NCBI GenBank assembly: GCA_007693585.1
Contig: REDH01000173.1
Coordinates: forward strand, 1 to 39,313
Direction: 5' to 3'
Length of the DNA: 39,313 bases
DNA from: Deltaproteobacteria bacterium
GTDB taxonomy: Bacteria > Myxococcota_A > Bradymonadia > REDH01
The notes below the pieces were generated by a model. It searched no databases. It was not told where the DNA came from and worked only from the letters and a program-made list of their open reading frames with translations. Below are positions 14,825 through 36,589 of this stretch, piece after piece. The position numbers were made by a program, and so were the translations under genes. Position 1 is the stretch's first letter; each line of letters opens with the position of its first letter.

Positions 14825-17800
14825 CTACTCGCCGTTCTCGCCGTTCTCGCCGTCTTCGGTCGGGACGCCGCTTTCGCCGTTCTCCGTCGGCATGCCGGTC
14901 TCCTCGCCGTTGTCTTCCTCGCTGTCGGCGAACGTGACATGGACCAGCTCGGCGATGGCGGGGGCCGCGCGTCGTCTCAGGCGCAGGGAGAGGACCTCCA
15001 CGCCGCGGTCATCGGCCCATGCGCCGAGGGCGAAGCCGAGTGCGGAGAGGCTATCGGAGACGGGACTGAAGTCGACACGGGCGGGTTCGGTCCAGGTGCC
15101 GCCGCCCTCGAGGGTGGTGGCCCAGACGGAGTGGTCGGTCATGTCCTGGTAGAAGATCCAGGGCGCGCCCTGCCAGGAGGCGGTGCGAATCGAGCCACCG
15201 ACCTGGTGGACGGCGAGGCGCTCGTCCACGATGCGGAGGCCGTCGTCGACCACGGTGACCTGGCCGCTGGCGAGGTTGACGACACGAAGCTCTCCGCTGA
15301 GCGCCTCGAGGTAGGCGACGAACGCTACGCCGTCCGCGGCATGCAGGGCGGCGAAGCGACCGGCGTCGGCGGGCAGGCCTTCCTGCGGGCCGTCGAGAAC
15401 GACGCTGCGCACGGCGTTTTCGAGGCCAGTTCCCGGGGTCTCGGTCGGGTCACCGTTCTCCGTCGGGTCACCGTTCCCGGACGGTTCCGTGGGTTCCGGA
15501 GTGCCTTCGACGGTCAGGTAGCGGAGTTCGCCCGCACCGCGGTCGTAGTGGACGACGTGGAGGACGCCGTCGGGGGTGCGGAGTCCGTCGACGAACTGTC
15601 CTGCGGAGGGCCGAAGCTCGACGAAGGGCGCGCGAGGCGCGGTGGGCCGGCAGGCGAAGCCGTCGTCGACGGCAAAGCAGGCGTCGTTGCCTTCGCAGCC
15701 GGGGCTGCACTGGCGGGGCCGCTCGGGGATCTCGCAGGTGTTGGTGTCCGTACGGCATTCGCGGGTGGCGCTCTCGCAGCCGCCGCCGCAGGGGCTGGTG
15801 ATGGCGATGCGGTCGAGGAGGACGCTGTCGCCGTGGGAGAGGTCGGCCTGCACTTCGATGGCGCGGACTTCGGCGAACCACTGTGCGGGCAGGGGATCGT
15901 CCTCGATGACGAGGGGCCGGCTGTAGACGATGGTGGCGGAGCCGTCGTCCTCGGGGACGGGTCGTGCCCATCGTCCGGCGCCCTGCTGGTCGTCGAGGGT
16001 GATGGTGTTCCAGGCGGGGGTTCCGTTGTCGAGGGTGACGCGGGTGAGCCGGAGGTCGTTCTCGGTGGCGCTGCGGCGTGTGCGCGAGGTGATCCATGCG
16101 GTCCCGTCTTGGCCGAGGGCGATGCGGACATCCCGTCCGGCGTCGGTACCGGTGCCGGTGATGCCCTGGCGGGGTCCGTCGGGATCGGCGGTGGGTTCGT
16201 CTTCGGGGACGCCGTCGAGGTGGGTCCACCGGAGGGAGCCGTCGTCCTGCTGGATGCCGAGGACGAGGTCGCGGAAGGTGTCGTTGCGGGCGGCGACGAG
16301 GCGGAGGGAGCCATCGCTGGAGGAGGCAGCGTCGAGGCTGGCGCCGAGCCGTCCGAAGGCGAGGGGATCTGCGGGGGTGCAGCCGCAGGCACCGGGGTCG
16401 GTGACGGTGCAGGCATCGAGGTCGACGTCCGGGAGGGTCTCGAGCACGGGCTGGGTGCCGGGGGGGCACTCGAGGTTGGCGCAGGGGTCCGGCACGGGCT
16501 CGCAGGAGGAGGTGCTGGCGCAGCACCAGGAGCCGTCGGGGCAGCCGCCGTCGCAGAGGTCATCGCAGGCGCAGGCGTTGGAGACACAGGTGCCGCCGAA
16601 TCGGCAGGAGCTGTCGCAGTCGCCATCCTCGATGCAGGCGACGGGCAGGCACTGTCCGTCGTCGCAGATGGCGATCCCTTCGCAATCGGCGTCCTCGGTG
16701 CAGGAGGGTGCAGGGTCGGAGGAAGGGAGGTCGCTGGGGAGCGAGCCGGTGGACCCGGGCGGGGTGGTCGAGTCGCTGCTGCCGCACGCGGCGAGCAGGA
16801 TGCTGGCTGCGAGGAGGGCGAGGACTCGGGGTCGGCGCAGGCCGAGGAGGAGTCCGAGGAGGAGGAGTACGGAGACGGGAGAACCGGACGCGGGTGCTGC
16901 GCTGCAGCCGCCGGCGCGTGGCGTGGCGGCGCTCGGCTGGGCGGGATCCGTGTCCAGGCGCTTGTCGGTGCGGGTGTGGAGGCCGGCGTCGTCGGTGGCG
17001 AGGACGGCGAGGTGGCGGACGCCGTGGAGCTGTCGTGCGGAGAGGGTGGTCTCGGGTCCGTCGAGGGGGAACCAGGCGCCGCCGTCGAGGCTGGCCCGGA
17101 GGTCGAGGCGATCGGCTGGGGTCAGGTTGTCATGGGCGAGGATGCGTACGGTCTCCCCGTCGTGTTCGAGGTGCACGGTGGGAGGGGTGAAGTCCTGCAC
17201 GAGGGCGAGGGTCGCGGTGCGGGCCGAGACGGATCCCGGGAGATCGGCGTAGCGCACGCGGATGTCGACGGTGTGGAGTCCTTCGGCGAGCATCTGTCGG
17301 CCGTCGATGCGGAGGGTGTCGGCGGGTTGCCAGGTGGACCAGAGTCCTCGTCCGATGCGCACGCTGGCTTCGAGGTCGCGAGCGGGGTCGCGGTCGAGTG
17401 CATCGACGCGGACGCGGACGGTGGGGGTGAGCGCGCGGGCGACGTCGTCGGCGTGAGCGCCGTCCTGCTGCAGCTGGCGGGCGAGGCGGGCGTCGCCGGC
17501 CTCGACGTGCTGCTCGACGAGGACGGGCAGGGGAGCGCCTTCGCGCTGGAGGCCCAGCAGCGTGGCGGGCTGGAGGTCGGCGAAGATGCCGAGCATCTCT
17601 CCGTCGTCGGTGGCGGTGATGGCCCCGGGGCCGAGGACGAGCTGGAAGCCGAGGAGTTCGGGGAGCTCGATGGGGTCCTCGAGGGCTTCGGTGAGTGCGG
17701 GGAGGAAGAGCCCAAGGAGGCTGGGGAGGGCGTTGATGAGCCCGTCGGTGTCGGCGGAGGCGAGGAGGTGGGCGTTTCGGGCCTCGATGCGGGTGATGGC

Positions 17801-19354
17801 GTCGCCGACGTCCCCGAGGAGGATCTGGATTCCGCCGGCATCGGAGGAGTCCAGGTCGATGGGGAGGTGGAGGTCGAGGTTGAGGGTGAAGACGCGGGTG
17901 TAGCGCTGGTAGGCGAAGAGGTAGAAGTCGATGTCGAGGTTTTCGAGGATGACGAGGAGGAGGGGTTCGCCGACCTCGGTGCCGTCGGGGAGGGTTCGGG
18001 TGCCGTTGCCGAGGGCGATCCGGGGGGGTTGTTGCGGTCGCAGGGCGAGTCGCATGGGCCGGATCTCGTTCTCGGTGAGGTCACCGAGGCTCGGCACGAG
18101 GATGGAGAAGGTGCCGCTGGTGAGCTGTTCGATGGTGTCGGAGCCGAGGGTCAGGCACAGGGCCCCGGAGCGGTAGACGGCCCACAGGGCGAGGTCGAGG
18201 GCGGTGCGGTGCACGCCGATGCCGATGGCGAAGGGATTGCCGACGGGGCTGAGGCTTCGGAAGAGTTCGCTGGAGAGCGGGGTCTCGTCGAGGGTGGGAG
18301 GATCGACGGCGGGGACGCAGAGGTTGGGGTCGGCGGTGAAGCCGAGCTCGGCGCCGAGGTCGAGGCCGTAGCCGGGTCCGGCGTCGACGGCGCGGGCGAG
18401 GCCGCCGAGCCAGGCCATGAAGCCGAGTTCGGCGGAGAGTCCCGGGGCGAAGTCGGCGAGGAGTCCGCCGAGGTCGAAGCGGTCCTCGAGGCCGAGGTCC
18501 ATGCCGAGGCAGGTGTCGGTGGCGGCGTCGAGGCAGAGGTTGTCGAGGCAGGTGAAGTCTCCGGGGCAGGGGACTTCGTCGGAGCATCGTCGGCAGAGGG
18601 TGTCGCCGAGGAGGTCGTCGATGGGTCCGGTGAGTTCGCTGGCGAAGACGTTGAGGAGGAGGGGGGCTGCGCTGGCGGCGACGCCGCACAGGGGGTCGCT
18701 GCCGGAGACGTCGATGCCGAGGGCACCGAGGTCGAAGTCGATGGCATCGGCGGGAATGTCGATGGTGGTGCGTCCGCGTTCCTCGTCGGAGAGGAACTGG
18801 AGTTCGGCGCGGATGGGGAGTCGTTCGGCGGAGAGGGTGAGGGTGCAGGAGGCTGCGCCGCCGATGGCGATGGATTCGTCGAGGTCGATGACGCCGAGTT
18901 CGACGGCGAGGCCGCTGGGGGGCAGGGGGCTGAGGAGGACCTCGCCGATCTCGAAGGTGAGCTGGCAACCGGGGATGCCGTCGTCGCAGGTGGCGCCGTC
19001 GCCGCAGATCTCGATGTCGCCGAGGCCGGGCAGTTCGAAGGCGAGGGGTTCGAGGCAGAAGGAGAGTCCGCCGTCGCCGATGAGGTCACCGATGAGGGGT
19101 CCGAGGTTGTCGGCGAGGAAGTCGAGTCCGCGTTCGGTGACGTGGACCTGCACGGCGTTGGCGAAGGAGGGGCCGTCGGTGGGGAAGGACCACTCGGGCG
19201 CGGTGGGGGGTCCGGCGTCGTCATCGCAGGCGAGGAGGTCGCAGCCGTCGCCGCAGCCGTCGTCGCAGCCGGCGCCGTCATCGGCGCAGGCCCATGCGGC
19301 GAACAGCAGTCCGGCAAGCAGGAGGCGGTTGAGTCGTGGGTCGGTCCAGCGCAT
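14825..19354 (-). CDS. giant BPI/TULIP-like lipoprotein with internal sorting signal and second lipobox (paralog 1)
   Basis: This is a 1509-residue protein. The ATG at 19354 gives MRWTDPRLNRLLLAG and lipobox AWAC (Cys23), matching the paralog; an ATG at 19426 overlaps the upstream stop but adds 24 odd residues. Residues about 65-590 resemble BPI/LBP/CETP proteins: VQVHVTERGLDFL opens a first barrel, FAIGIGVHRTALDLALWAVY opens a second, and LPELLGFQLVLGPG with IFADL closes it. Ig-like domains follow (about 610-800). Residues 816-818 are Gly-Cys-Ser, followed by a hydrophobic run, RRPR, a second hydrophobic run and lipobox LLAAC (Cys857). Then come Cys-rich repeats and a propeller-like domain (about 960-1480). 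The tail is repetitive (PTENGE). Probable cell-envelope lipid binding is inferred, not shown. Confidence 0.8.
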   Translation of the reverse strand: MRWTDPRLNRLLLAGLLFAAWACADDGAGCDDGCGDGCDLLACDDDAGPPTAPEWSFPTDGPSFANAVQVHVTERGLDFLADNLGPLIGDLIGDGGLSFCLEPLAFELPGLGDIEICGDGATCDDGIPGCQLTFEIGEVLLSPLPPSGLAVELGVIDLDESIAIGGAASCTLTLSAERLPIRAELQFLSDEERGRTTIDIPADAIDFDLGALGIDVSGSDPLCGVAASAAPLLLNVFASELTGPIDDLLGDTLCRRCSDEVPCPGDFTCLDNLCLDAATDTCLGMDLGLEDRFDLGGLLADFAPGLSAELGFMAWLGGLARAVDAGPGYGLDLGAELGFTADPNLCVPAVDPPTLDETPLSSELFRSLSPVGNPFAIGIGVHRTALDLALWAVYRSGALCLTLGSDTIEQLTSGTFSILVPSLGDLTENEIRPMRLALRPQQPPRIALGNGTRTLPDGTEVGEPLLLVILENLDIDFYLFAYQRYTRVFTLNLDLHLPIDLDSSDAGGIQILLGDVGDAITRIEARNAHLLASADTDGLINALPSLLGLFLPALTEALEDPIELPELLGFQLVLGPGAITATDDGEMLGIFADLQPATLLGLQREGAPLPVLVEQHVEAGDARLARQLQQDGAHADDVARALTPTVRVRVDALDRDPARDLEASVRIGRGLWSTWQPADTLRIDGRQMLAEGLHTVDIRVRYADLPGSVSARTATLALVQDFTPPTVHLEHDGETVRILAHDNLTPADRLDLRASLDGGAWFPLDGPETTLSARQLHGVRHLAVLATDDAGLHTRTDKRLDTDPAQPSAATPRAGGCSAAPASGSPVSVLLLLGLLLGLRRPRVLALLAASILLAACGSSDSTTPPGSTGSLPSDLPSSDPAPSCTEDADCEGIAICDDGQCLPVACIEDGDCDSSCRFGGTCVSNACACDDLCDGGCPDGSWCCASTSSCEPVPDPCANLECPPGTQPVLETLPDVDLDACTVTDPGACGCTPADPLAFGRLGASLDAASSSDGSLRLVAARNDTFRDLVLGIQQDDGSLRWTHLDGVPEDEPTADPDGPRQGITGTGTDAGRDVRIALGQDGTAWITSRTRRSATENDLRLTRVTLDNGTPAWNTITLDDQQGAGRWARPVPEDDGSATIVYSRPLVIEDDPLPAQWFAEVRAIEVQADLSHGDSVLLDRIAITSPCGGGCESATRECRTDTNTCEIPERPRQCSPGCEGNDACFAVDDGFACRPTAPRAPFVELRPSAGQFVDGLRTPDGVLHVVHYDRGAGELRYLTVEGTPEPTEPSGNGDPTENGDPTETPGTGLENAVRSVVLDGPQEGLPADAGRFAALHAADGVAFVAYLEALSGELRVVNLASGQVTVVDDGLRIVDERLAVHQVGGSIRTASWQGAPWIFYQDMTDHSVWATTLEGGGTWTEPARVDFSPVSDSLSALGFALGAWADDRGVEVLSLRLRRRAAPAIAELVHVTFADSEEDNGEETGMPTENGESGVPTEDGENGENGE
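16780..16910 (-). other. internal MYXO-CTERM-like element plus second lipobox (paralog 1)
   Basis: Within the giant gene, codons for Gly-Cys-Ser (Cys codon 16904-16906, residue 817) are followed by VSVLLLLGLLLGL, RRPR, VLALLAASILLAA and Cys857 (codon 16784-16786). I see no in-frame ATG, GTG or TTG close enough to start a separate lipoprotein, so both signals are inside one frame. It looks like a C-terminal sorting signal fused directly to a lipoprotein signal peptide. Confidence 0.75.
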
Positions 19355-19422
19355 GGCGCCCTCGCGTCGCGGGTGGGGTCGTGAATTCGGTGGGGTCGAG
19401 CGTGCCGGCGGGGCGGCGGGAG

Positions 19423-22400
19423 TCATTCGGCGGGGCAGAGTTCGGCGGAGCGCACGCGGACGTCATTGCCTTCGTTGAAGAGCGTGCTGCTGGCGAGCTG
19501 CACGCTGGCGCCGGAGCGGGGTCCCACGCCGATGTAGAAGCCCCAGGCGCCGTCCCACTCGGGGGAGGCGCCGCCGAGGGTGACGGGTTCGAGCCAGCCG
19601 TTGTCGAAGACGGAGGCGACGAGCGTTCCGGAGGTGGCGTCCTGGTAGACGAGGGCCGCGGAGGATCCGCAGTCGACGAGCTGGACGGCCTGGCCGACGC
19701 GGCTCAGGAGCACGCCGTCGTCGGTGATGCGGACGCCGTCATCGACGAGCACGCTGAGGTTGGTGTCGAGCTGGAGGGCGACGAGTTCGCGGCGGGTTTC
19801 GTCGACGAAGGCTGCCCAGGGTTCGCCGGCGACGGTTCCCGCGGTGGCGAAGCGTCCGGCGTCGATGTCGGCGGTTCCGGCGATGGTGGTGGCGGGGGTG
19901 GAGGTGCCGTCGTCGAGGACGCGGGCCTGGAGGAGGGTGCCGGCCACGGCGTCGTGGAAGACGACGCGGAAGCCGTCGTTCTCGCGGAGGGCGCTGGCGA
20001 AGAGTCCGGTGCCGGCGGGGAGGGTGACGATGCCTTCGTGTGCGGTGACGGGAGCGCAGGTGAAGGTGTCGGGGCTGTCGGTGCGGAAGCATGCCTGATC
20101 GCCGGGGCAGCCGCCGCACCAGCGTTCGCTGATGGTGCGTGTGCAGGCGTTGGTGTCGGCGTTGCAGGCTTCTCCGGTGGGGCACCGGCCGCCGCAGGCC
20201 TCGGTGTTGGGGATCCCGTGGACGACGGAGATGTCGTAGTCGCCGTCGGTGCCGGCTCGCGCGGCGCGCAGCTCGCTGCGCCAGGCTCCGGCGGAGTCGG
20301 CGACGCGGGGGGCCATGTAGAAGACCCAGGGGGTGCCGTCTTCGGTGACGTGGAGTTCTCCGTAGAGTCCGCCGCCGCCGTCGGCGTCGACGGTGCGGAT
20401 GGTCCACTGTCCGCTGGCGTCGCGGACGCCGTGGCGGAGGGTGAGGGCGTGGGGGCCGCTGGCGACGTGCCAGGTGGCGTGGAGGGTGCCGTCCGGGGCG
20501 AAGGCGAGGCTGGGGTGGTGGCCGGCGTCGGGTCCGGGGTCGGCGATGCCGCTGCGGGGTCCGGCCGGGTCGGCGGAGGCGCGTGCGCCGGCGGGCAGAC
20601 CGTCGACGGTCTCCCAGGCGATGGCGCCGTCGTTGCCGACGAAGCCGACCGCGAGGTCGCCGTAGGTCTCGTTCCAGGCGGCGACGGCGAACTGATCGCC
20701 GTGGCTGGCGCTGGTGAGCCAGCGGCCGATGCGGCCTTCGTCGAGGGGCGGGAGGGGGACGCACTCGCATTCGCCGGGGCTGTCGAGGGCGCAGGTGCGG
20801 CTGCTGGCGGTGGCGGCGGAGCGCACGACGGGCTGGGTGCCGGCGGGGCATGTGGTGCTCGAGCAGGCCCACGGCTCCGGGGTGCAGCGGTCGGTGTCGT
20901 GGCAGCAGAAGGTGCCGGCGGGGCAGCCGTCGGCACAGGGCACGCCGCAGAAGCAGTCGCCGTCGAAACACTGGCCGATCTCGCCGTTCTCGCAGGGGTC
21001 GGTGCACTCGGCGGAGGAGGTGCAGGCCACCGGTTCACAGGAGTTCCCGACGCAGCGTTCGCCGGCGGGACAGTCGGTGTTCACGATGCACTCCGGGGCG
21101 TCGGCGCCGGGGACGCACTCGCGGGCCCGACAGACGAGGCCCTCGCCGCAGTCGGCATCATCGAAGCACTCCGGGGGGGCGGGCGGTGGGACGCAGCGGT
21201 TGTCTTCGCAGCGCAGGTCGTCGGGGCACATGTTGTTCGTGACGCACTCGGGGGGGCGGGGCGTGCAGTGGCCGGCAACGCAGGCCTCGTCCGCGCTGCA
21301 GTCGGCCGGGCCTTCGCAGGCTCGCCCGAGGTCGAGGTCGTGGCAGGTGAAGTCGCGGCAGACCTGGAGGTCGCCGCAGTCGAAGTCATCGCGGCAGTCG
21401 ACGGTGACGCATGCGCCGTCGACGCACCGTTCGCCGGTGCCGCACTCGAGATCCACCTGGCACTCCGGTCCGGTGGTGGTCTCGATGCCGGAGGATTCCT
21501 CGCTGCTGCCCGCGGGGGGGGTTGTAGCGCTGTCGGACCCGCACGCGCCCAGGAGGAGGGCGGCGGCGGCGACGGCGAGGAGGCCGCGGCGGCGGCGCAG
21601 GACGAGCAGGCCGGCCAGGAGCAGGAGCGAGGCGAGGGGACCGCTGGTGGGCGCGCCGGCGGCGCTGCAGCCGGCGCGGGGGACGGCGGCGAGGGGATCG
21701 CCTCCGGCCACGGCGCGTTCGCTGCGGAGGCCGGGGACCTCGACGCGTTTCTCGGCGCGACCGATGTTTCCGGCCTCGTCGCGCACCTCGACGGTGACGG
21801 TCACGCGCTGACCGGCGTGGTCTGCAAGGCGGATGGGGGTGAGGTCGGTGGCGAAGTCGCCGAGGGGTTCACCGTCGACGAGGACGCGGCGGGCAAGCCG
21901 GTGGGCGGGGGTCAGGTCATCGTGGGCGATGACGTGGACCTGCGCACCGCTGGTTTCGAGGCGCACGCGCGGGGCGAGGAAGTCGGTCGTGACGGGGATC
22001 AGGATGGTGTCGGGGTGCAGGGTGGCGGGCTGGTCTGCGTATCGGGCGCGCACCTCGACATGGTGCTGGCCGGGGGCCCCGAGGCGCCGGTCGTCGATGC
22101 GGAGGGTGTTGCCCGCGTGCCAGACGCTCCAGGGTCCGTGCCCGATGCGCCAGCCGAGCTCGAGGTCGTCTCCCGGGACGGTCACGTGGACCACGGGGCG
22201 CACGGCATCGAGGGAGAAGGGGGTCCCTTCTCGGACGTCGGCCATGTGCCGGGCGATGTCCTCGGTGGCGGGCCGGTCGACGCGGGCGATGTGCCGGTCC
22301 ACTGCCGGGAGGGCGACCATCGGCAGGGGGATGGGGTCGCCGGTGAGCTCGAGGTCGGCGAAGATGGCGAGCAGGTCACCGTTGTCGATCGAGGTGATGC

Positions 22401-24015
22401 TGCCTGGCCGGAGGACGAGCTGGAATCCGAAGAGGTCGGGCAGCTCGAGGCTGGGGAGGGCGTCGTCGGTGAGCCCGGGCAGGAGCAGGCCGATGACGGT
22501 GGGCAGGAGCTCGACGAGGACCTGGGACTCGGCGGGGGTCAGGAGGGAGGCGTTGCGGGCCTCGATGCGGGTGAGGATGCCGCCGAGGTCTCCGAGGAGG
22601 GGGGTGAGCACGCCGTCGCTGGTGACGTCGATGCCGATGGGGATGTTGAGGTCGACGTCGAGGGTGAGGACGCGGCCGTAGCGGTCCTGGTGAAAGAGGT
22701 AGAAGTCGATCTCGGTGTTCTCGAGGACGAGCTGGACGAGCTCGGCGCCTTCGCCAAGCTGGACGCGGGGGGCGAGGTTCGGCCGCAGGACGATCCGCAG
22801 GGGTCGTTCGAGGCCGTCGCCGAGCCGGTCGAGGGTGGGGAGGAGCAGGCCGAGCACGCCGGTGGAGAGGAACTCGATGTCCTCGGCGCCGAGCTCGAGG
22901 CAGAGGGCACCGGAGCGGTGAACACCCCACAGGGCGAGGTCGAGGAATTCGCGGTGGATGCCGATCCCGAGGGAGAACGGTCGCTGCGCGGGGTCGACGT
23001 CGGTGTGGAGGGTCGGCGAGGGGGGGATGGGCCCGGTGATGGGGGGCGGGAGCACGGGGACGCAGAGGTCGGGATCGGCGGTGGTTCCGGCGAGCATCCC
23101 GAGGCTGAGGCTCTGGGGGCTCTCCGGTCCTTCGGCGGAGGCGTATCCACCGAGGTATGCGGAGTAGAAGAGGAGCCGCGGATCGACCGGGGGTGCGGGC
23201 GTGTCATCCTCGTCGTCGCCGTCTCCGCCGAGCAGGCCGCCGAGCAGGTCCCCGAGGTCGAAGGCTCCTTCGGCGCCGACTTCTTCGGGGAGCACCTCGG
23301 TGATTTCGCCGAGGGCGTCGCCGATGGCGTCGTTGATGGCGCCGCTGAAGAGCCCCGAGAGCAGGTCGGCGATGAAGCAGACGAAGCCCCCGCTCACGTC
23401 GATCCGCAGGTTCTGGATGGTCGCGGTGGGATCGGAGACCGCGAGCTGCGTGCGTTCGAAGACGTTCTGTTCGGAGAGGAGAAACCGGATTGGCAGGTTG
23501 GCGATGACCCGGTTGAACCGGATGCGCGCGTTGCAGTTGGTGGCAAGGAGCCGGGCCCGCACGGTGCGGTCGAACGAGGCGATGCGCACCTGAACGTCGA
23601 GTTGATCGGGTGCTCGCGGGGTGAGCGAGGCCCCTTCGAGGGTGAGGTTGAGCTGGCAGCCGGTCTGGCCGTCGCTGCATGTCTCGTTGCCACAGATCGT
23701 GGCGCCGGAGGCCGTCGTCTGCGGGAAGCAGAAGCTCAGGCCATCTTCCCCGAGGAGGAGTGGCACGAGCTCCTCGACGGCTTCCTCGAGGAGTTCGAGG
23801 CCGCGCTCGGTCACGTGGATCTGCACGCCGCCGGGCACGAGGGGTCCGTCGTCGGGGTAGGGGAACTCGGGTTCCGCCACGCCGCCGTCGTCATCGCAGC
23901 CCAGGCAGCTGTCGATGTCGCATCCCTCGCCGTCATCGGCACAGGCCCACGCCGCAAGGAGGAGAGCGGCCATGAGCAGGCCGTTCCAGCGTCGATCGGT
24001 CCACGTCGCGCGCAT
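19423..24015 (-). CDS. giant BPI/TULIP-like lipoprotein with internal sorting signal and second lipobox (paralog 2)
   Basis: This is a 1530-residue protein that starts MRATWTDRRWNGLLMA with lipobox AWAC (Cys25). VQIHVTERGLELL opens the first BPI-like barrel near residue 65. FSLGIGIHREFLDLALWGVH (about 345) opens the second, and LPDLFGFQLVLRPGSI with IFADLEL (to about 560) closes it. Ig-like domains follow to about 770. Residues 782-784 are Gly-Cys-Ser, then LASLLLLAGLLVL, RRRR, LLAVAAAALLLGA and Cys825. The Cys-rich part is longer than in paralog 1, about seven C-x-x-x-x-C-type modules (such as CGTGERCVDGAC and CPAGERCVGNSC). A propeller-like domain with a Cys-rich insert ends the protein. 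Its stop overlaps an upstream-extended ATG of paralog 1, so the two genes form an operon. Confidence 0.82.
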   Translation of the reverse strand: MRATWTDRRWNGLLMAALLLAAWACADDGEGCDIDSCLGCDDDGGVAEPEFPYPDDGPLVPGGVQIHVTERGLELLEEAVEELVPLLLGEDGLSFCFPQTTASGATICGNETCSDGQTGCQLNLTLEGASLTPRAPDQLDVQVRIASFDRTVRARLLATNCNARIRFNRVIANLPIRFLLSEQNVFERTQLAVSDPTATIQNLRIDVSGGFVCFIADLLSGLFSGAINDAIGDALGEITEVLPEEVGAEGAFDLGDLLGGLLGGDGDDEDDTPAPPVDPRLLFYSAYLGGYASAEGPESPQSLSLGMLAGTTADPDLCVPVLPPPITGPIPPSPTLHTDVDPAQRPFSLGIGIHREFLDLALWGVHRSGALCLELGAEDIEFLSTGVLGLLLPTLDRLGDGLERPLRIVLRPNLAPRVQLGEGAELVQLVLENTEIDFYLFHQDRYGRVLTLDVDLNIPIGIDVTSDGVLTPLLGDLGGILTRIEARNASLLTPAESQVLVELLPTVIGLLLPGLTDDALPSLELPDLFGFQLVLRPGSITSIDNGDLLAIFADLELTGDPIPLPMVALPAVDRHIARVDRPATEDIARHMADVREGTPFSLDAVRPVVHVTVPGDDLELGWRIGHGPWSVWHAGNTLRIDDRRLGAPGQHHVEVRARYADQPATLHPDTILIPVTTDFLAPRVRLETSGAQVHVIAHDDLTPAHRLARRVLVDGEPLGDFATDLTPIRLADHAGQRVTVTVEVRDEAGNIGRAEKRVEVPGLRSERAVAGGDPLAAVPRAGCSAAGAPTSGPLASLLLLAGLLVLRRRRGLLAVAAAALLLGACGSDSATTPPAGSSEESSGIETTTGPECQVDLECGTGERCVDGACVTVDCRDDFDCGDLQVCRDFTCHDLDLGRACEGPADCSADEACVAGHCTPRPPECVTNNMCPDDLRCEDNRCVPPPAPPECFDDADCGEGLVCRARECVPGADAPECIVNTDCPAGERCVGNSCEPVACTSSAECTDPCENGEIGQCFDGDCFCGVPCADGCPAGTFCCHDTDRCTPEPWACSSTTCPAGTQPVVRSAATASSRTCALDSPGECECVPLPPLDEGRIGRWLTSASHGDQFAVAAWNETYGDLAVGFVGNDGAIAWETVDGLPAGARASADPAGPRSGIADPGPDAGHHPSLAFAPDGTLHATWHVASGPHALTLRHGVRDASGQWTIRTVDADGGGGLYGELHVTEDGTPWVFYMAPRVADSAGAWRSELRAARAGTDGDYDISVVHGIPNTEACGGRCPTGEACNADTNACTRTISERWCGGCPGDQACFRTDSPDTFTCAPVTAHEGIVTLPAGTGLFASALRENDGFRVVFHDAVAGTLLQARVLDDGTSTPATTIAGTADIDAGRFATAGTVAGEPWAAFVDETRRELVALQLDTNLSVLVDDGVRITDDGVLLSRVGQAVQLVDCGSSAALVYQDATSGTLVASVFDNGWLEPVTLGGASPEWDGAWGFYIGVGPRSGASVQLASSTLFNEGNDVRVRSAELCPAE
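21541..21669 (-). other. internal MYXO-CTERM-like element plus second lipobox (paralog 2)
   Basis: The Cys of Gly-Cys-Ser is codon 21667-21669 (residue 783); the lipobox Cys is codon 21541-21543 (residue 825). Between them are two hydrophobic runs separated by RRRR. The spacing (42 residues) is close to that in paralog 1 (40). The only alternative in-frame GTG, in ERAVAGG, would give a poor signal peptide with two hydrophobic runs. Confidence 0.75.
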
Positions 24016-24222: not shown

Positions 24223-24978
24223 TCAGCGGACGGGTGCGCGCACGGCCCCGAACCGGCGCTCCCTCGCCGCGAAGGTCCGCAACGCTTCGTCGAGGTCCGC
24301 GGCGCCGAAGTCCGGCCAGAGCCTGGGGTCGACCACGAACTCGGCGTAGGCGATCTGCCAGAGCAGGAAGTTGGAGACCCGGAGCTCTCCGCTGGTACGG
24401 ATGACCAGGTCCGGGTCGGGGGCCCCTGCGGTCCACAGGCGGGCGCTGAGCGCGGACTCGTCGACGTCCTCGGGGTCGATGCGACCGGCGAGGGCATCGG
24501 CGACGAGCTGTCGGGCGGCGGAGACGAGCTCTTCGCGTCCGCCGTAGCTCAGCGCGATCTGGAGGGTCATGGCGCGGTTGTCGCGGGTGGCGCGCTCCAC
24601 GGTCTCGGCCGCGAAGCGTGCAGGCGCGGGGATGCGATCGCGCTGGCCGATCACGCGCAGTCGGATGTCCTTGTCCATCATGAGCTGCCGCTCCTTCTGG
24701 CAGAACTCGATCAGCAGGGCCATCAGGGCGTTGATCTCGTCGGCCGGCCGGCGCCAGTTCTGGGCGCTGAAGGCGTAGAGGGTCAGCCACGGGACACCGA
24801 GCTCGCGCGCGCGGGTGACGACCGCCCGCACGGCGCGCGCGCCCTCCTGGTGTCCCCACGTCCTCGGCTTTCCGCGCTGTGCGGCCCAGCGGCCGTTTCC
24901 GTCCATGATGACGGCCACGTGCCGCGGCACCTCGGCGAGGCCTGCATTCAGGCGGTGCTGTTCTTCCTCGGTCGGCAT
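24223..24978 (-). CDS. uppS: isoprenyl transferase (undecaprenyl-diphosphate synthase)
   Basis: This is a 251-residue protein with an ATG at 24978 (GGGGGAG upstream); an in-frame TTG at 25002 is less likely. Signatures are HVAVIMDGNGRWA (catalytic Asp26), RGKPRTWGHQEGARAVR, WLTLYAFSAQNWRRP, ALSYGGREELV and DLVIRTSGELRVSNFLLWQIAYAEF. It condenses isopentenyl diphosphate with farnesyl diphosphate to make the C55 lipid carrier for peptidoglycan and other cell-wall polymers. Its usual partners cdsA and dxr are not next to it. It is 75 bp downstream of the metallophosphoesterase on the same strand. Confidence 0.95.
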   Translation of the reverse strand: MPTEEEQHRLNAGLAEVPRHVAVIMDGNGRWAAQRGKPRTWGHQEGARAVRAVVTRARELGVPWLTLYAFSAQNWRRPADEINALMALLIEFCQKERQLMMDKDIRLRVIGQRDRIPAPARFAAETVERATRDNRAMTLQIALSYGGREELVSAARQLVADALAGRIDPEDVDESALSARLWTAGAPDPDLVIRTSGELRVSNFLLWQIAYAEFVVDPRLWPDFGAADLDEALRTFAARERRFGAVRAPVR

Positions 24979-25009
24979 CGTGACCGGCTCCCCCGGCTGC
25001 AAGCCTATG

Positions 25010-25050
25010 GGCTGACTCGCGGTGGCTGACTCGCGGTGGCTGACTCGCGG
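25010..25050. repeat. 14-bp tandem repeat, three copies
   Basis: GGCTGACTCGCGGT occurs at 25010-25023 and 25024-25037, with a third copy lacking the last base at 25038-25050. It fills most of the gap between the metallophosphoesterase stop and uppS. Each unit contains a TGA in the plus direction. Confidence 0.85.
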
Positions 25051-25053
25051 CCC

Positions 25054-33686: not shown

Positions 33687-36458
33687 TCAGGGTCCGGCGG
33701 GGCGGGTGATGGTGACGGTGGCGATGGCGAACTGGCCGGAGGGATCGATGACCCTGAAGTCGAAGGCGTCGGTGAGTTCGAGGGAGGCATTGCTGGCCTC
33801 GAAGGTGAAGCTGCCATCGGGCGAGATCAGCACGACGCCGGACTCCGGCTGCTCCAGGAGAACGAACACGAGCTCATCGAGGGGCACCGTGCCCGGCTCG
33901 ACAGCGGTTCTCAGGCCGTCCTCGGCATCGATCGTGAGGGTCGTGGTCTCGGCGACCATCACGTAGGTGGTGCTCGACGCCGCGGGAGGCACGGTACGGA
34001 CGTTGATCATGACCGTCGCCGGCGCAGAGTTGGTGGTGCCGTCCTGCGCGACGTAGGTGAAGGCATCGGAGCCGAAGAACGTGCCACTCGGGGTGTAGGT
34101 TGCGGTGTCGCCGTCGATGTCGACGGTCCCGCTGGCTGGGCCATCGGCCAGGGCGAAGGTCAGCGGGTCATCGTCCGGATCGGTCGCGACGAGCGTGATC
34201 TGGACCGGTTGGCCGGACAAGGCTTCCGCCTCGCGATCCTCGGCCGTGGGTGGGCGGTTGACGTACGCGACGGTGATGGTGGCGGTGGCGGGGTCGGAGA
34301 ACAACTCGCCGTCGAAGGCCTGGTAGAGGAAATCATCTTCTCCGAAGAAGTCGCCGTCGGGGATGTAGGTGGCTTCGTCCCCGATGACGACGAGGGTGCC
34401 ATGCTGCGGGTTCTCGACGATTCGGAATTCGATGGGGTCGTCGTCCGGGTCGCTCCCATCCAGTGCGAACGTGCCGCCTTCGCGCTGCGGAACGGTGACG
34501 GCGATATCCCGGGCGACGGGGGGACGGTTTCGGGGGGTGACTGTGATGGTGACGGTGGCGGGGGACGAGACGACCTCGCCGTCGGAGACCGTGAAGGTGA
34601 AGGTGTCTTCGCCGAGGAAGCTGGCGTCGGGGGTGTAGGTTGCAGCATTCCCGTCGAGGGTGACGGAGCCATGGGCTGGGGCTTCGGCGACGGTGAAGGT
34701 GAGTGTGGCCTCGGGGTCGCCGGAGCCGTCGAGGTCGAAGGTCAGGGGTGAATCGCGCTGTGTGGACAGGGAGAGGTCGCGCGCTGTGGGGGGGATGGTC
34801 GCGCGCTGGACGTTCACGCGGACCTCTGCGGGCGCGGAGGTGGCCTGGCCGTCGGAGGCTGTGTAGGTGAAGGTCACCTCTCCGTGGAAGTCGGGGTCGC
34901 CGGTGAGATCGAGGCGCGTGAAGGCGCCGACGATCGAAGCCGATCCGATGGCAGGGGGATCGGCGATGGCGAAGGAGAGTGGGTCGCCGTCGGGGTCGGT
35001 GGCATCGAGGGCGATCAGGGTGGAGGAGCCCTGCGGTACGGTGTCCGAGACGGCGCTGGCGACCGGGGGACGATTGACGTAGCGGACGGTAACGGTGACG
35101 GTGGCCGGCGCGGAGAGGAGTTCGCCATCGAAGGCGCGGAAGGTGAGCAGGTCCTGTCCGAAGAAGTCGGCGTCGGGGGTGTAGGTGAGTTGGAGCCCGT
35201 CGAGGGTGGCTGTCCCGTTCCGGGGGTCGTCGACGATCTCCAGCGTGACGTCGTCGCCATCGGGGTCGGTGGCCGTGAGCGTGCGGCTGAAGGAGGTGCG
35301 CTGATCTCCGCTGAGGTTGGCATCGAGGGCGACAGGGGGCCTGTTGACGAAGTTCACGGTGATGGAGACGGTGGCGGGCTCGGAGAAGTGTTCTCCGTCG
35401 GAGACGCGGTAGGTGAAGGCATCCTCCCCGTGAAACGCGGGTTCCGGGGTATAGGTCGCGGTCCGACCGTTGAGGGTGATCACGCCGTGCTGTGGCTGAG
35501 CCACGATCTCCCAGGTCAGGGGTTCTCCATCAAGGTCGAAGCCGCGCAGGTCGAAGGTCGTGCTGCTGCGCTGATCGAGGCTGACGGCAAAGTCCTCGGC
35601 CACAGGTGGGCGGTTCTCGAGGGGCAGGACGTCGAGCGTGACTGTGGCGGGATCGGAGTTCAGTTCGCCGTCCGAGGCCACGTAGGTGAAGCTGTCCTGA
35701 CCGGAGAAGCCGGCGTCAGGCGTGTAGGTGGCGAGGTCCTCGTCGAGCGACACCACGCCGTGTTCGGGTTCGTCCACAATGCGGTACGTCAGTTCGTCCC
35801 CGTCGGGGTCTGATGCGACGAGCCGAATGACGGTGTCGCGTTCGGCTGCGGCGTCGACCTGCAGGTCGTCCGCGACGGGAGGACGATTGGGCAGGGCGAG
35901 CACGCTGACCGAGACGGTCGCGGGAGCAGAGCGGACATCGGCGTTGCCTACGGTGAACTCGAAGGAGTCCTGTCCGACGAAGTCATCGTCCGGAACGTAC
36001 TCGAGGTCGGGCGCTGCGCCGTGGAGGAGCCCCGAGTCCGGTGCGCGCGCGACCTCGTACACCAGGGCGATCCCCTGGGGTCCGGAGCCTTCGAGTCCGA
36101 TCTCGATGCCGGTGTTGACCGCGGTCGTGACGGTTGCGGACACGGCCGAGAAGTCTTCGGGTCCGAGGACGACCTCGGTCACGTCGGAACTCGGAGGCTC
36201 CTCCGAGACGTCGATGTCGGACCTCGGAGCGGTGGCGTCCGGAGCGGTGGCGTCCGGAGCGGTGGCGTCCGGAGCGGTGGCGCTCCGATCGGGGATTGAC
36301 CCGGTCGGGCGGGAATCATCCGATGGGTGGGTTGAGGTTGGGGCGTCACGCTCGGGCTGATGCGGGTCATCGCCACCACAGGCGAATGTCGCGAGCGCGA
36401 TCGTCAGGGCGATAGCGACCGCCAGCGGGCGGTCGAGATGGAGCGGTGTCACGCGCAT
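33687..36458 (-). CDS. surface lipoprotein with about nine Ig-like (cadherin/Big-type) domains
   Basis: This is a 923-residue protein. The signal PLAVAIALTIALATFAC gives lipobox Cys27. A Thr/Pro/Asp-rich linker contains four ATAPD copies. Then come tandem domains of about 90-95 residues whose starts read NRPPVADDLQ, NRPPVAEDFA, NRPPVALDAN, NRPPVASAV, IPPTARDLS, NRPPVARDIA and NRPPTAEDRE, with divergent first and last domains. Each has a D-P-D-G-D calcium-type motif, a YTPD strand (YTPDAGFSGQDSFTY) and an S-x-PATVTV close. This is the Big_9/'VCBS/cadherin-like' type of adhesive stalk. It would be anchored to the envelope and extend outward. Ligand and role are unknown. Confidence 0.88.
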   Translation of the reverse strand: MRVTPLHLDRPLAVAIALTIALATFACGGDDPHQPERDAPTSTHPSDDSRPTGSIPDRSATAPDATAPDATAPDATAPRSDIDVSEEPPSSDVTEVVLGPEDFSAVSATVTTAVNTGIEIGLEGSGPQGIALVYEVARAPDSGLLHGAAPDLEYVPDDDFVGQDSFEFTVGNADVRSAPATVSVSVLALPNRPPVADDLQVDAAAERDTVIRLVASDPDGDELTYRIVDEPEHGVVSLDEDLATYTPDAGFSGQDSFTYVASDGELNSDPATVTLDVLPLENRPPVAEDFAVSLDQRSSTTFDLRGFDLDGEPLTWEIVAQPQHGVITLNGRTATYTPEPAFHGEDAFTYRVSDGEHFSEPATVSITVNFVNRPPVALDANLSGDQRTSFSRTLTATDPDGDDVTLEIVDDPRNGTATLDGLQLTYTPDADFFGQDLLTFRAFDGELLSAPATVTVTVRYVNRPPVASAVSDTVPQGSSTLIALDATDPDGDPLSFAIADPPAIGSASIVGAFTRLDLTGDPDFHGEVTFTYTASDGQATSAPAEVRVNVQRATIPPTARDLSLSTQRDSPLTFDLDGSGDPEATLTFTVAEAPAHGSVTLDGNAATYTPDASFLGEDTFTFTVSDGEVVSSPATVTITVTPRNRPPVARDIAVTVPQREGGTFALDGSDPDDDPIEFRIVENPQHGTLVVIGDEATYIPDGDFFGEDDFLYQAFDGELFSDPATATITVAYVNRPPTAEDREAEALSGQPVQITLVATDPDDDPLTFALADGPASGTVDIDGDTATYTPSGTFFGSDAFTYVAQDGTTNSAPATVMINVRTVPPAASSTTYVMVAETTTLTIDAEDGLRTAVEPGTVPLDELVFVLLEQPESGVVLISPDGSFTFEASNASLELTDAFDFRVIDPSGQFAIATVTITRPAGP
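36226..36286. repeat. 15-bp tandem repeat, four copies, in the lipoprotein linker
   Basis: GGAGCGGTGGCGTCC is repeated at 36226, 36241 and 36256, with a slightly changed fourth copy from 36271. It encodes the ATAPD repeats on the minus strand. Copy number is likely to vary between strains. Confidence 0.85.
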
Positions 36459-36589
36459 GTTGGTGTGAATCCGTGGAGGAAGTGTGTGATCTGCTCACCG
36501 TGGCGGGGCCACCTGGTGAGACAGGTCATCTGGTGTCGGGAGAGGGATGGGACCGTGTGGGAGAGGCCGGTCGAACGCGAGGCTGCTTC

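Follow-up and report, generated by a model that had tools for sequence, protein, structure and literature searches.

Does a reading frame that carries two complete sorting signals in its middle encode one surface protein or the precursor of two? As a rule, each bacterial surface protein has a reading frame of its own. The question is raised by a gene in the window, that is, the whole stretch of 39,313 nucleotides analysed here (contig REDH01000173.1, Deltaproteobacteria bacterium), and by its tandem paralog.

Two membrane signals within one reading frame

Gene 1 is a minus-strand open reading frame (ORF) at positions 14825-19426, which contains no internal stop and encodes 1533 amino acids from its first ATG. 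Met25 at 19354 is the preferred start, because this codon lines up with the paralog's start, has GAGGG immediately upstream and yields the residue numbering of a preliminary description of the locus. Residues are counted here from the first ATG; Cys817 and Cys857 of that description, which counted from Met25, correspond to Cys841 and Cys881. The features of both genes are:

14825..19354 (-): putative polyprotein gene 1 (its open frame begins with the ATG at 19426), encoding in order a lipoprotein signal, the BPI-like half, a MYXO-CTERM tag, a second lipoprotein signal and the Cys-rich/propeller half
19286..19354 (-): lipoprotein signal peptide at the N terminus of the first half, MRWTDPRLNRLLLAGLLFAAWAC (from sequence; orthologs also have lipoprotein-type N termini)
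16907..19204 (-): first half, predicted BPI/LBP/CETP-like fold followed by Ig/FN3-like domains (structure model and Foldseek)
16826..16906 (-): internal MYXO-CTERM tag comprising Cys841, a hydrophobic segment and RRPR (TIGR03901 and codons)
16784..16837 (-): internal lipoprotein signal peptide, which has the Arg cluster in common with the tag; lipobox LAAC881 (codons and lipobox pattern)
14828..16783 (-): second half, predicted Cys-rich region and beta-propeller (structure model and Foldseek)
19423..24015 (-): putative polyprotein gene 2, the tandem paralog, with a stop codon that overlaps the first ATG of the gene 1 open frame
23941..24015 (-): lipoprotein signal peptide at the N terminus of paralog 2, ending in LAAWAC25 (from sequence)
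21586..21669 (-): MYXO-CTERM tag inside paralog 2, from Cys783 to RRRR810 (19.8 bits with TIGR03901, whole-protein scan)
21541..21597 (-): internal lipoprotein signal in paralog 2 with lipobox LGAC825; its junction lacks ATG, GTG and TTG

The junction of gene 1 reads GGC841SAAPASGSPVSVLLLLGLLLGLRRPR and continues directly with VLALLAASILLAAC881. Cys841 is encoded at 16904-16906, the RRPR cluster at 16826-16837 and the lipobox residue Cys881 at 16784-16786, and the stretch between the two cysteines lacks any ATG, GTG or TTG codon. The first half has an N-terminal lipobox of its own, AWAC47. Paralog 2, whose main aligned block is 39% identical to gene 1, shows the identical order of Cys783, RRRR and Cys825, and the junction occupies the homologous place in both proteins. 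A single frame without a break thus encodes two complete membrane signals that face opposite ways and stand back to back. The preliminary description had claimed that a MYXO-CTERM anchor is fused directly to a type II signal peptide and that no in-frame start is available between them, and both claims held at the level of residues and codons.

The internal tag satisfies the MYXO-CTERM layout, with an invariant cysteine in a short signature, a hydrophobic helix and an Arg cluster. The curated model TIGR03901 is borderline for it, though the layout is clear: the gene 1 tag scored 25.0 bits in the genome search (cut-off 20), and whole-protein scans gave 18.0 bits for gene 1 and 19.8 bits for the paralog, both just under the cut-off. 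The tag is not at the extreme C terminus of the fused protein, where more than 660 residues follow it; the split orthologs described below do have a terminal tag. The second signal satisfies the layout for signal peptidase II (positive n-region, hydrophobic h-region and a lipobox with cysteine), as judged without a dedicated signal-peptide predictor. It is not N-terminal to the translated product, there being no start codon between the cysteines, and it is N-terminal in the split orthologs.

The junction is not due to chance, because the composite pattern was rare in residue shuffles of the two proteins (7/2000 and 15/2000), lies at the homologous place in both paralogs and is present in every one of the class ORFs that hold both halves. 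A lipobox pattern was matched by 48 of 50 junction cysteines; among the remaining cysteines of these proteins, 25 of 1958 matched it. Net charge is positive in nearly all junctions. Weaker junctions exist, with a net charge of 0 in L037 and non-canonical residues ahead of the cysteine in L030 and L070 and, by eye, in L296 and L306. In an alignment of 28 junctions the mean column identity was 32%, and the two cysteines were the sole invariant columns. This alignment is supporting and not independent evidence, since two of its rows are non-homologous junctions and the rows were trimmed around the cysteines.

That the halves would be BPI-like and Cys-rich/propeller, as previously proposed, is supported by structure models and Foldseek searches. 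The AlphaFold model of the first half (pLDDT 85) had BPI as its top match (1ewf, E 3.8e-17, TM 0.60 by target), and this half is predicted to consist of a BPI/LBP/CETP-like (TULIP) lipid-binding fold with Ig/FN3-like domains. A Pfam search found nothing in the gene 1 protein (P0001), LBP_BPI_CETP included, and LBP_BPI_CETP was detected in 1 of 38 relatives (E 0.0067). The model of the second half (pLDDT 82) matched best the lectin CV39L (6gxs, E 1.3e-9, TM 0.65 by target), predicting, from the fold alone, a Cys-rich domain and a lectin/sialidase-like beta-propeller. A role in surface lipid or glycan handling is possible, and is a guess from the folds.

Directly upstream of both genes lies a gene for undecaprenyl diphosphate synthase, 24226-25053 (-); in G010, G036 and G047 the neighbour at that place instead resembles tRNA nucleotidyltransferase, as judged by eye. 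Elsewhere in the window, 33690-36494 (-) encodes a 935-residue lipoprotein-like protein with many bacterial Ig/cadherin-like repeats.

Conservation, natural splitting and recurrence of the junction

A third copy with the junction is found on another contig of the source genome (L014, the same as L054), and matches were obtained in 45 of the 58 related genomes searched. Among the ORFs fetched from the class, all 48 that hold both halves carry the MYXO cysteine, a hydrophobic segment, a basic cluster, a second hydrophobic segment and the lipobox cysteine. This set was chosen by the presence of the two halves and not by the cysteines; about 20 of the junction bounds were placed by hand. G010, G036 and G047, all of them single-contig genomes, hold fused ORFs. 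Of 20 loci fetched from other families of the phylum, 19 are fused with the same junction, the single-contig genome G200 included, and in the sole exception the first half terminates exactly at its own MYXO-CTERM. A search for related loci with a narrower alignment returned seven loci from metagenome-assembled genomes titled Deltaproteobacteria, delta proteobacterium, Myxococcales, proteobacterium or bacterium.

Two side observations concern individual loci. L304 (G200:C1:7585000-7592000) contains only a first half with a terminal MYXO-CTERM, no second half being detected by profile within the same 7 kb, and G200 also holds the fused form (L300). A divergent polyprotein paralog lies within about 6 kb of a myxosortase gene in L250, L251 and L252 (G017, G025 and G006); this proximity may be mere shared gene order and is not counted as evidence.

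In three loci of the class (L055, L057 and L077) the halves are naturally split. The first half stops after a normal terminal MYXO-CTERM, and the next gene, overlapping or adjacent, opens with a lipoprotein signal. In a tree of 49 first halves, rooted at the midpoint only, the split loci form three separate tips, and L055 (G035) groups with full support as sister to the fused L029 (G008) from the same genus. The simplest reading is that the halves fused long ago and were later split again, each half retaining what its sorting requires. The persistence of splits in some genomes does not suggest a need for equal amounts. The preliminary description had named as a check a survey of homologs for a conserved junction and for genomes with the halves as separate genes, and both were found.

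The joint is not confined to this family. A TIGR03901 census of three single-contig genomes gave 83 matches, 71 of them terminal and 12 internal, and behind each of the 12 internal tags lies a further hydrophobic segment with a site for signal peptidase II or I, as judged by eye. By a profile search of its contigs, the source genome has 6 internal tags out of 24, namely those of the two window genes, L054, L074, L075 and L076. The joint thus recurs in unrelated proteins, including a three-part chain. A bolder reading, towards which we lean without firm commitment, is that the MYXO-CTERM/signal-peptide hairpin is a general and ancient polyprotein joint in Myxococcota, a reusable module for unrelated pairs (once three) of surface proteins that are separated by two membrane proteases.

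Several of these proteins may be described individually. In the source genome, L075 (G000:C148:19000-27000) has one internal junction and a second, terminal MYXO-CTERM, and therefore both products would bear a tag. L076 (G000:C99:9000-17000) is a chain in which MYXO-CTERM and a signal peptidase I-type site connect an M10 (matrixin) peptidase half with a SpoIID half. The three-part chain is L122 (G047:C1:4105000-4116000), a 3056-residue ORF of a single-contig genome with FG-GAP and cadherin-like repeats and two internal MYXO-CTERM/lipoprotein-signal junctions. Signal peptidase I-type sites follow internal MYXO-CTERM tags also in L193, L208, L228, L186, L124, L140 and L243; in L140 and L243 adhesin-type domains are joined to a terminal OmpA, which recalls MXAN_5598 and TraA/TraB.

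Proposed processing and rival explanations

The best explanation of the locus is that the ORF is a polyprotein precursor cut by myxosortase and signal peptidase II. This is considered likely, with a probability of roughly 0.77; cleavage is inferred, there being no protein-level data. In the proposed mechanism, the first signal peptide would start export of the BPI-like half and the MYXO-CTERM helix would halt transfer, leaving the Arg cluster in the cytoplasm. The same cluster would serve as the n-region of the internal lipoprotein signal peptide, which would re-enter the membrane and export the second half. A cut by MrtP beside Cys841 would then give a BPI-like lipoprotein with a processed C terminus, lipidation and cleavage at Cys881 by Lgt and LspA would give an independent Cys-rich/propeller lipoprotein, and the two-helix hairpin between the cuts would be discarded. 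Because the first half has its own N-terminal lipobox, the mature first product is expected to be lipid-anchored at its N terminus via AWAC47, and its C-terminal cysteine would probably be modified too. The type II secretion system would probably then take the MYXO-CTERM product to the surface. In this view, fusion would ensure co-production of the two partners in one place and at one time.

The required enzymes are encoded. MrtP of the source genome (L084) scored 325.5 bits with NF040674 (cut-off 250), and LspA and GspD are present as well. The Mrt core is above cut-off in 54 of 57 class genomes; myxosortase presence is therefore necessary but not discriminating, as it is nearly universal in the class. 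Myxosortase cleaves MYXO-CTERM in Myxococcus xanthus and in Escherichia coli, and MrtX cleavage is Cys-dependent (PMC11980579). Against a polyprotein it may be objected that known myxosortase substrates bear the tag at the C terminus, and that acceptance by MrtP of a tag continuing into another helix is inferred. The earlier proposal of a polyprotein cut by a myxosortase-like enzyme and signal peptidase II is thus supported with regard to the enzymes encoded, both cuts remaining inferred. Its further claim, that equal amounts of the partners are guaranteed, is an inference only, plausible but not shown.

One alternative is that the chain is never cut and that a permanent membrane hairpin tethers two periplasmic domains, the signals being relics of an old fusion. 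Such a hairpin is topologically sound, agrees with the positive charge of the junctions and is not contradicted by any cleavage data. It is nevertheless unlikely: both cysteines and the lipobox are kept in all 48 class ORFs while the remaining junction drifts, the re-split genes retain both signals complete, and unrelated proteins share the joint, all 12 internal tags of the single-contig genomes preceding a cleavable-type signal. Similarly improbable is cleavage at one site only, for example by LspA at Cys881 with the BPI-like half held by an uncut MYXO-CTERM helix, or the reverse. In its favour, the surface-localization defect of the M. xanthus mrtX mutant is not absolute, so that MYXO-CTERM proteins may arrive at the surface even when uncut (PMC11980579), and the internal position might hinder one enzyme. 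On the other hand, the two sites are conserved to an equal degree, and the archaeal protein HVO_0405 provides a case of cleavage at an internal sorting tag (PMC7157517).

Internal translation starts could yield the second lipoprotein separately, alongside full-length read-through, and 33 of 50 junctions do have an ATG, GTG or TTG 15-32 codons before the lipobox cysteine. The other 17 (P0001, its paralog P0002 and 15 others) have no candidate codon at -32 to -15, however; the candidates lie at scattered positions, a Shine-Dalgarno-like sequence is no commoner at them (7/76) than at other in-frame codons (14.5%), and full-length synthesis would continue anyway. This explanation is very unlikely, being rejected by the codons for P0001 and P0002 and statistically for the others. 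A last alternative is an assembly or sequencing error, or separate genes merged through a missed stop; a sequencing error hiding a stop and a start was one refutation foreseen in the preliminary description, and the source genome is indeed a draft of 223 contigs. This alternative is excluded by the three paralogs in that genome, the 48 class ORFs and the 19 loci outside the class, which include the single-contig genomes G010, G036, G047 and G200.

Relation to known systems

With the polyprotein reading preferred, the locus likely represents an ancient and little-described form of bacterial polyprotein, found across much of Myxococcota, in which two membrane enzymes probably do the cutting. If this is true, the conserved two-enzyme joint is a systematic polyprotein strategy in a whole phylum, MYXO-CTERM tags are not exclusively C-terminal, and many large surface proteins now annotated as "single" are in fact two or three. 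The joint would also offer a clean reporter for myxosortase research, as cut and uncut forms differ greatly in size. No on-topic paper on bacterial polyproteins was found in the open-access literature searched. What seems to be new is that the tag is fused straight to a cleavable signal peptide, together with how old and widespread this fusion is, the pairs of split and fused genes and the three-part chain; part of this may be known already.

The MYXO-CTERM/myxosortase system (TIGR03901; MrtX, MrtC and MrtP) has been described by Guo, Haft and Wall (2025, PMC11980579). The present proteins share with it the tripartite tag, the invariant cysteine and a cognate MrtP in the genome; they differ in that their tag sits inside the chain, with an Arg cluster continuing into a second export signal, and not at the end of the protein as in the pathway described. 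Internal MYXO-CTERM tags are called rare and atypical in that study, which gives MXAN_5598 of M. xanthus as an example and proposes its processing. MXAN_5598 likewise has an internal MYXO-CTERM between two surface/envelope modules, and L243 and L140 have its adhesin-then-OmpA layout; the relevant passages do not report that a lipoprotein signal follows its tag, nor that the arrangement is deeply conserved, has split orthologs or extends to three-part chains. TraA and TraB of myxobacteria (PMC11980579 and its reference 21) also pair a MYXO-CTERM protein with an envelope partner, in touching (overlapping) genes, but they are two ORFs and not one. The cytochrome b/c1 precursor encoded by fbcH of Bradyrhizobium is a bacterial precursor split at an internal signal peptide; unlike the present joint, it has no upstream sorting tag, and it belongs to a respiratory complex. 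A parallel in which a central cut has been shown is HVO_0405 of Haloferax volcanii, a substrate of archaeosortase A (PMC7157517), which is also a two-gene fusion with a central tripartite tag. Its tag is of the archaeal PGF type, the enzyme is unrelated and the fusion is strain-specific, whereas the fusion described here is old and widespread.
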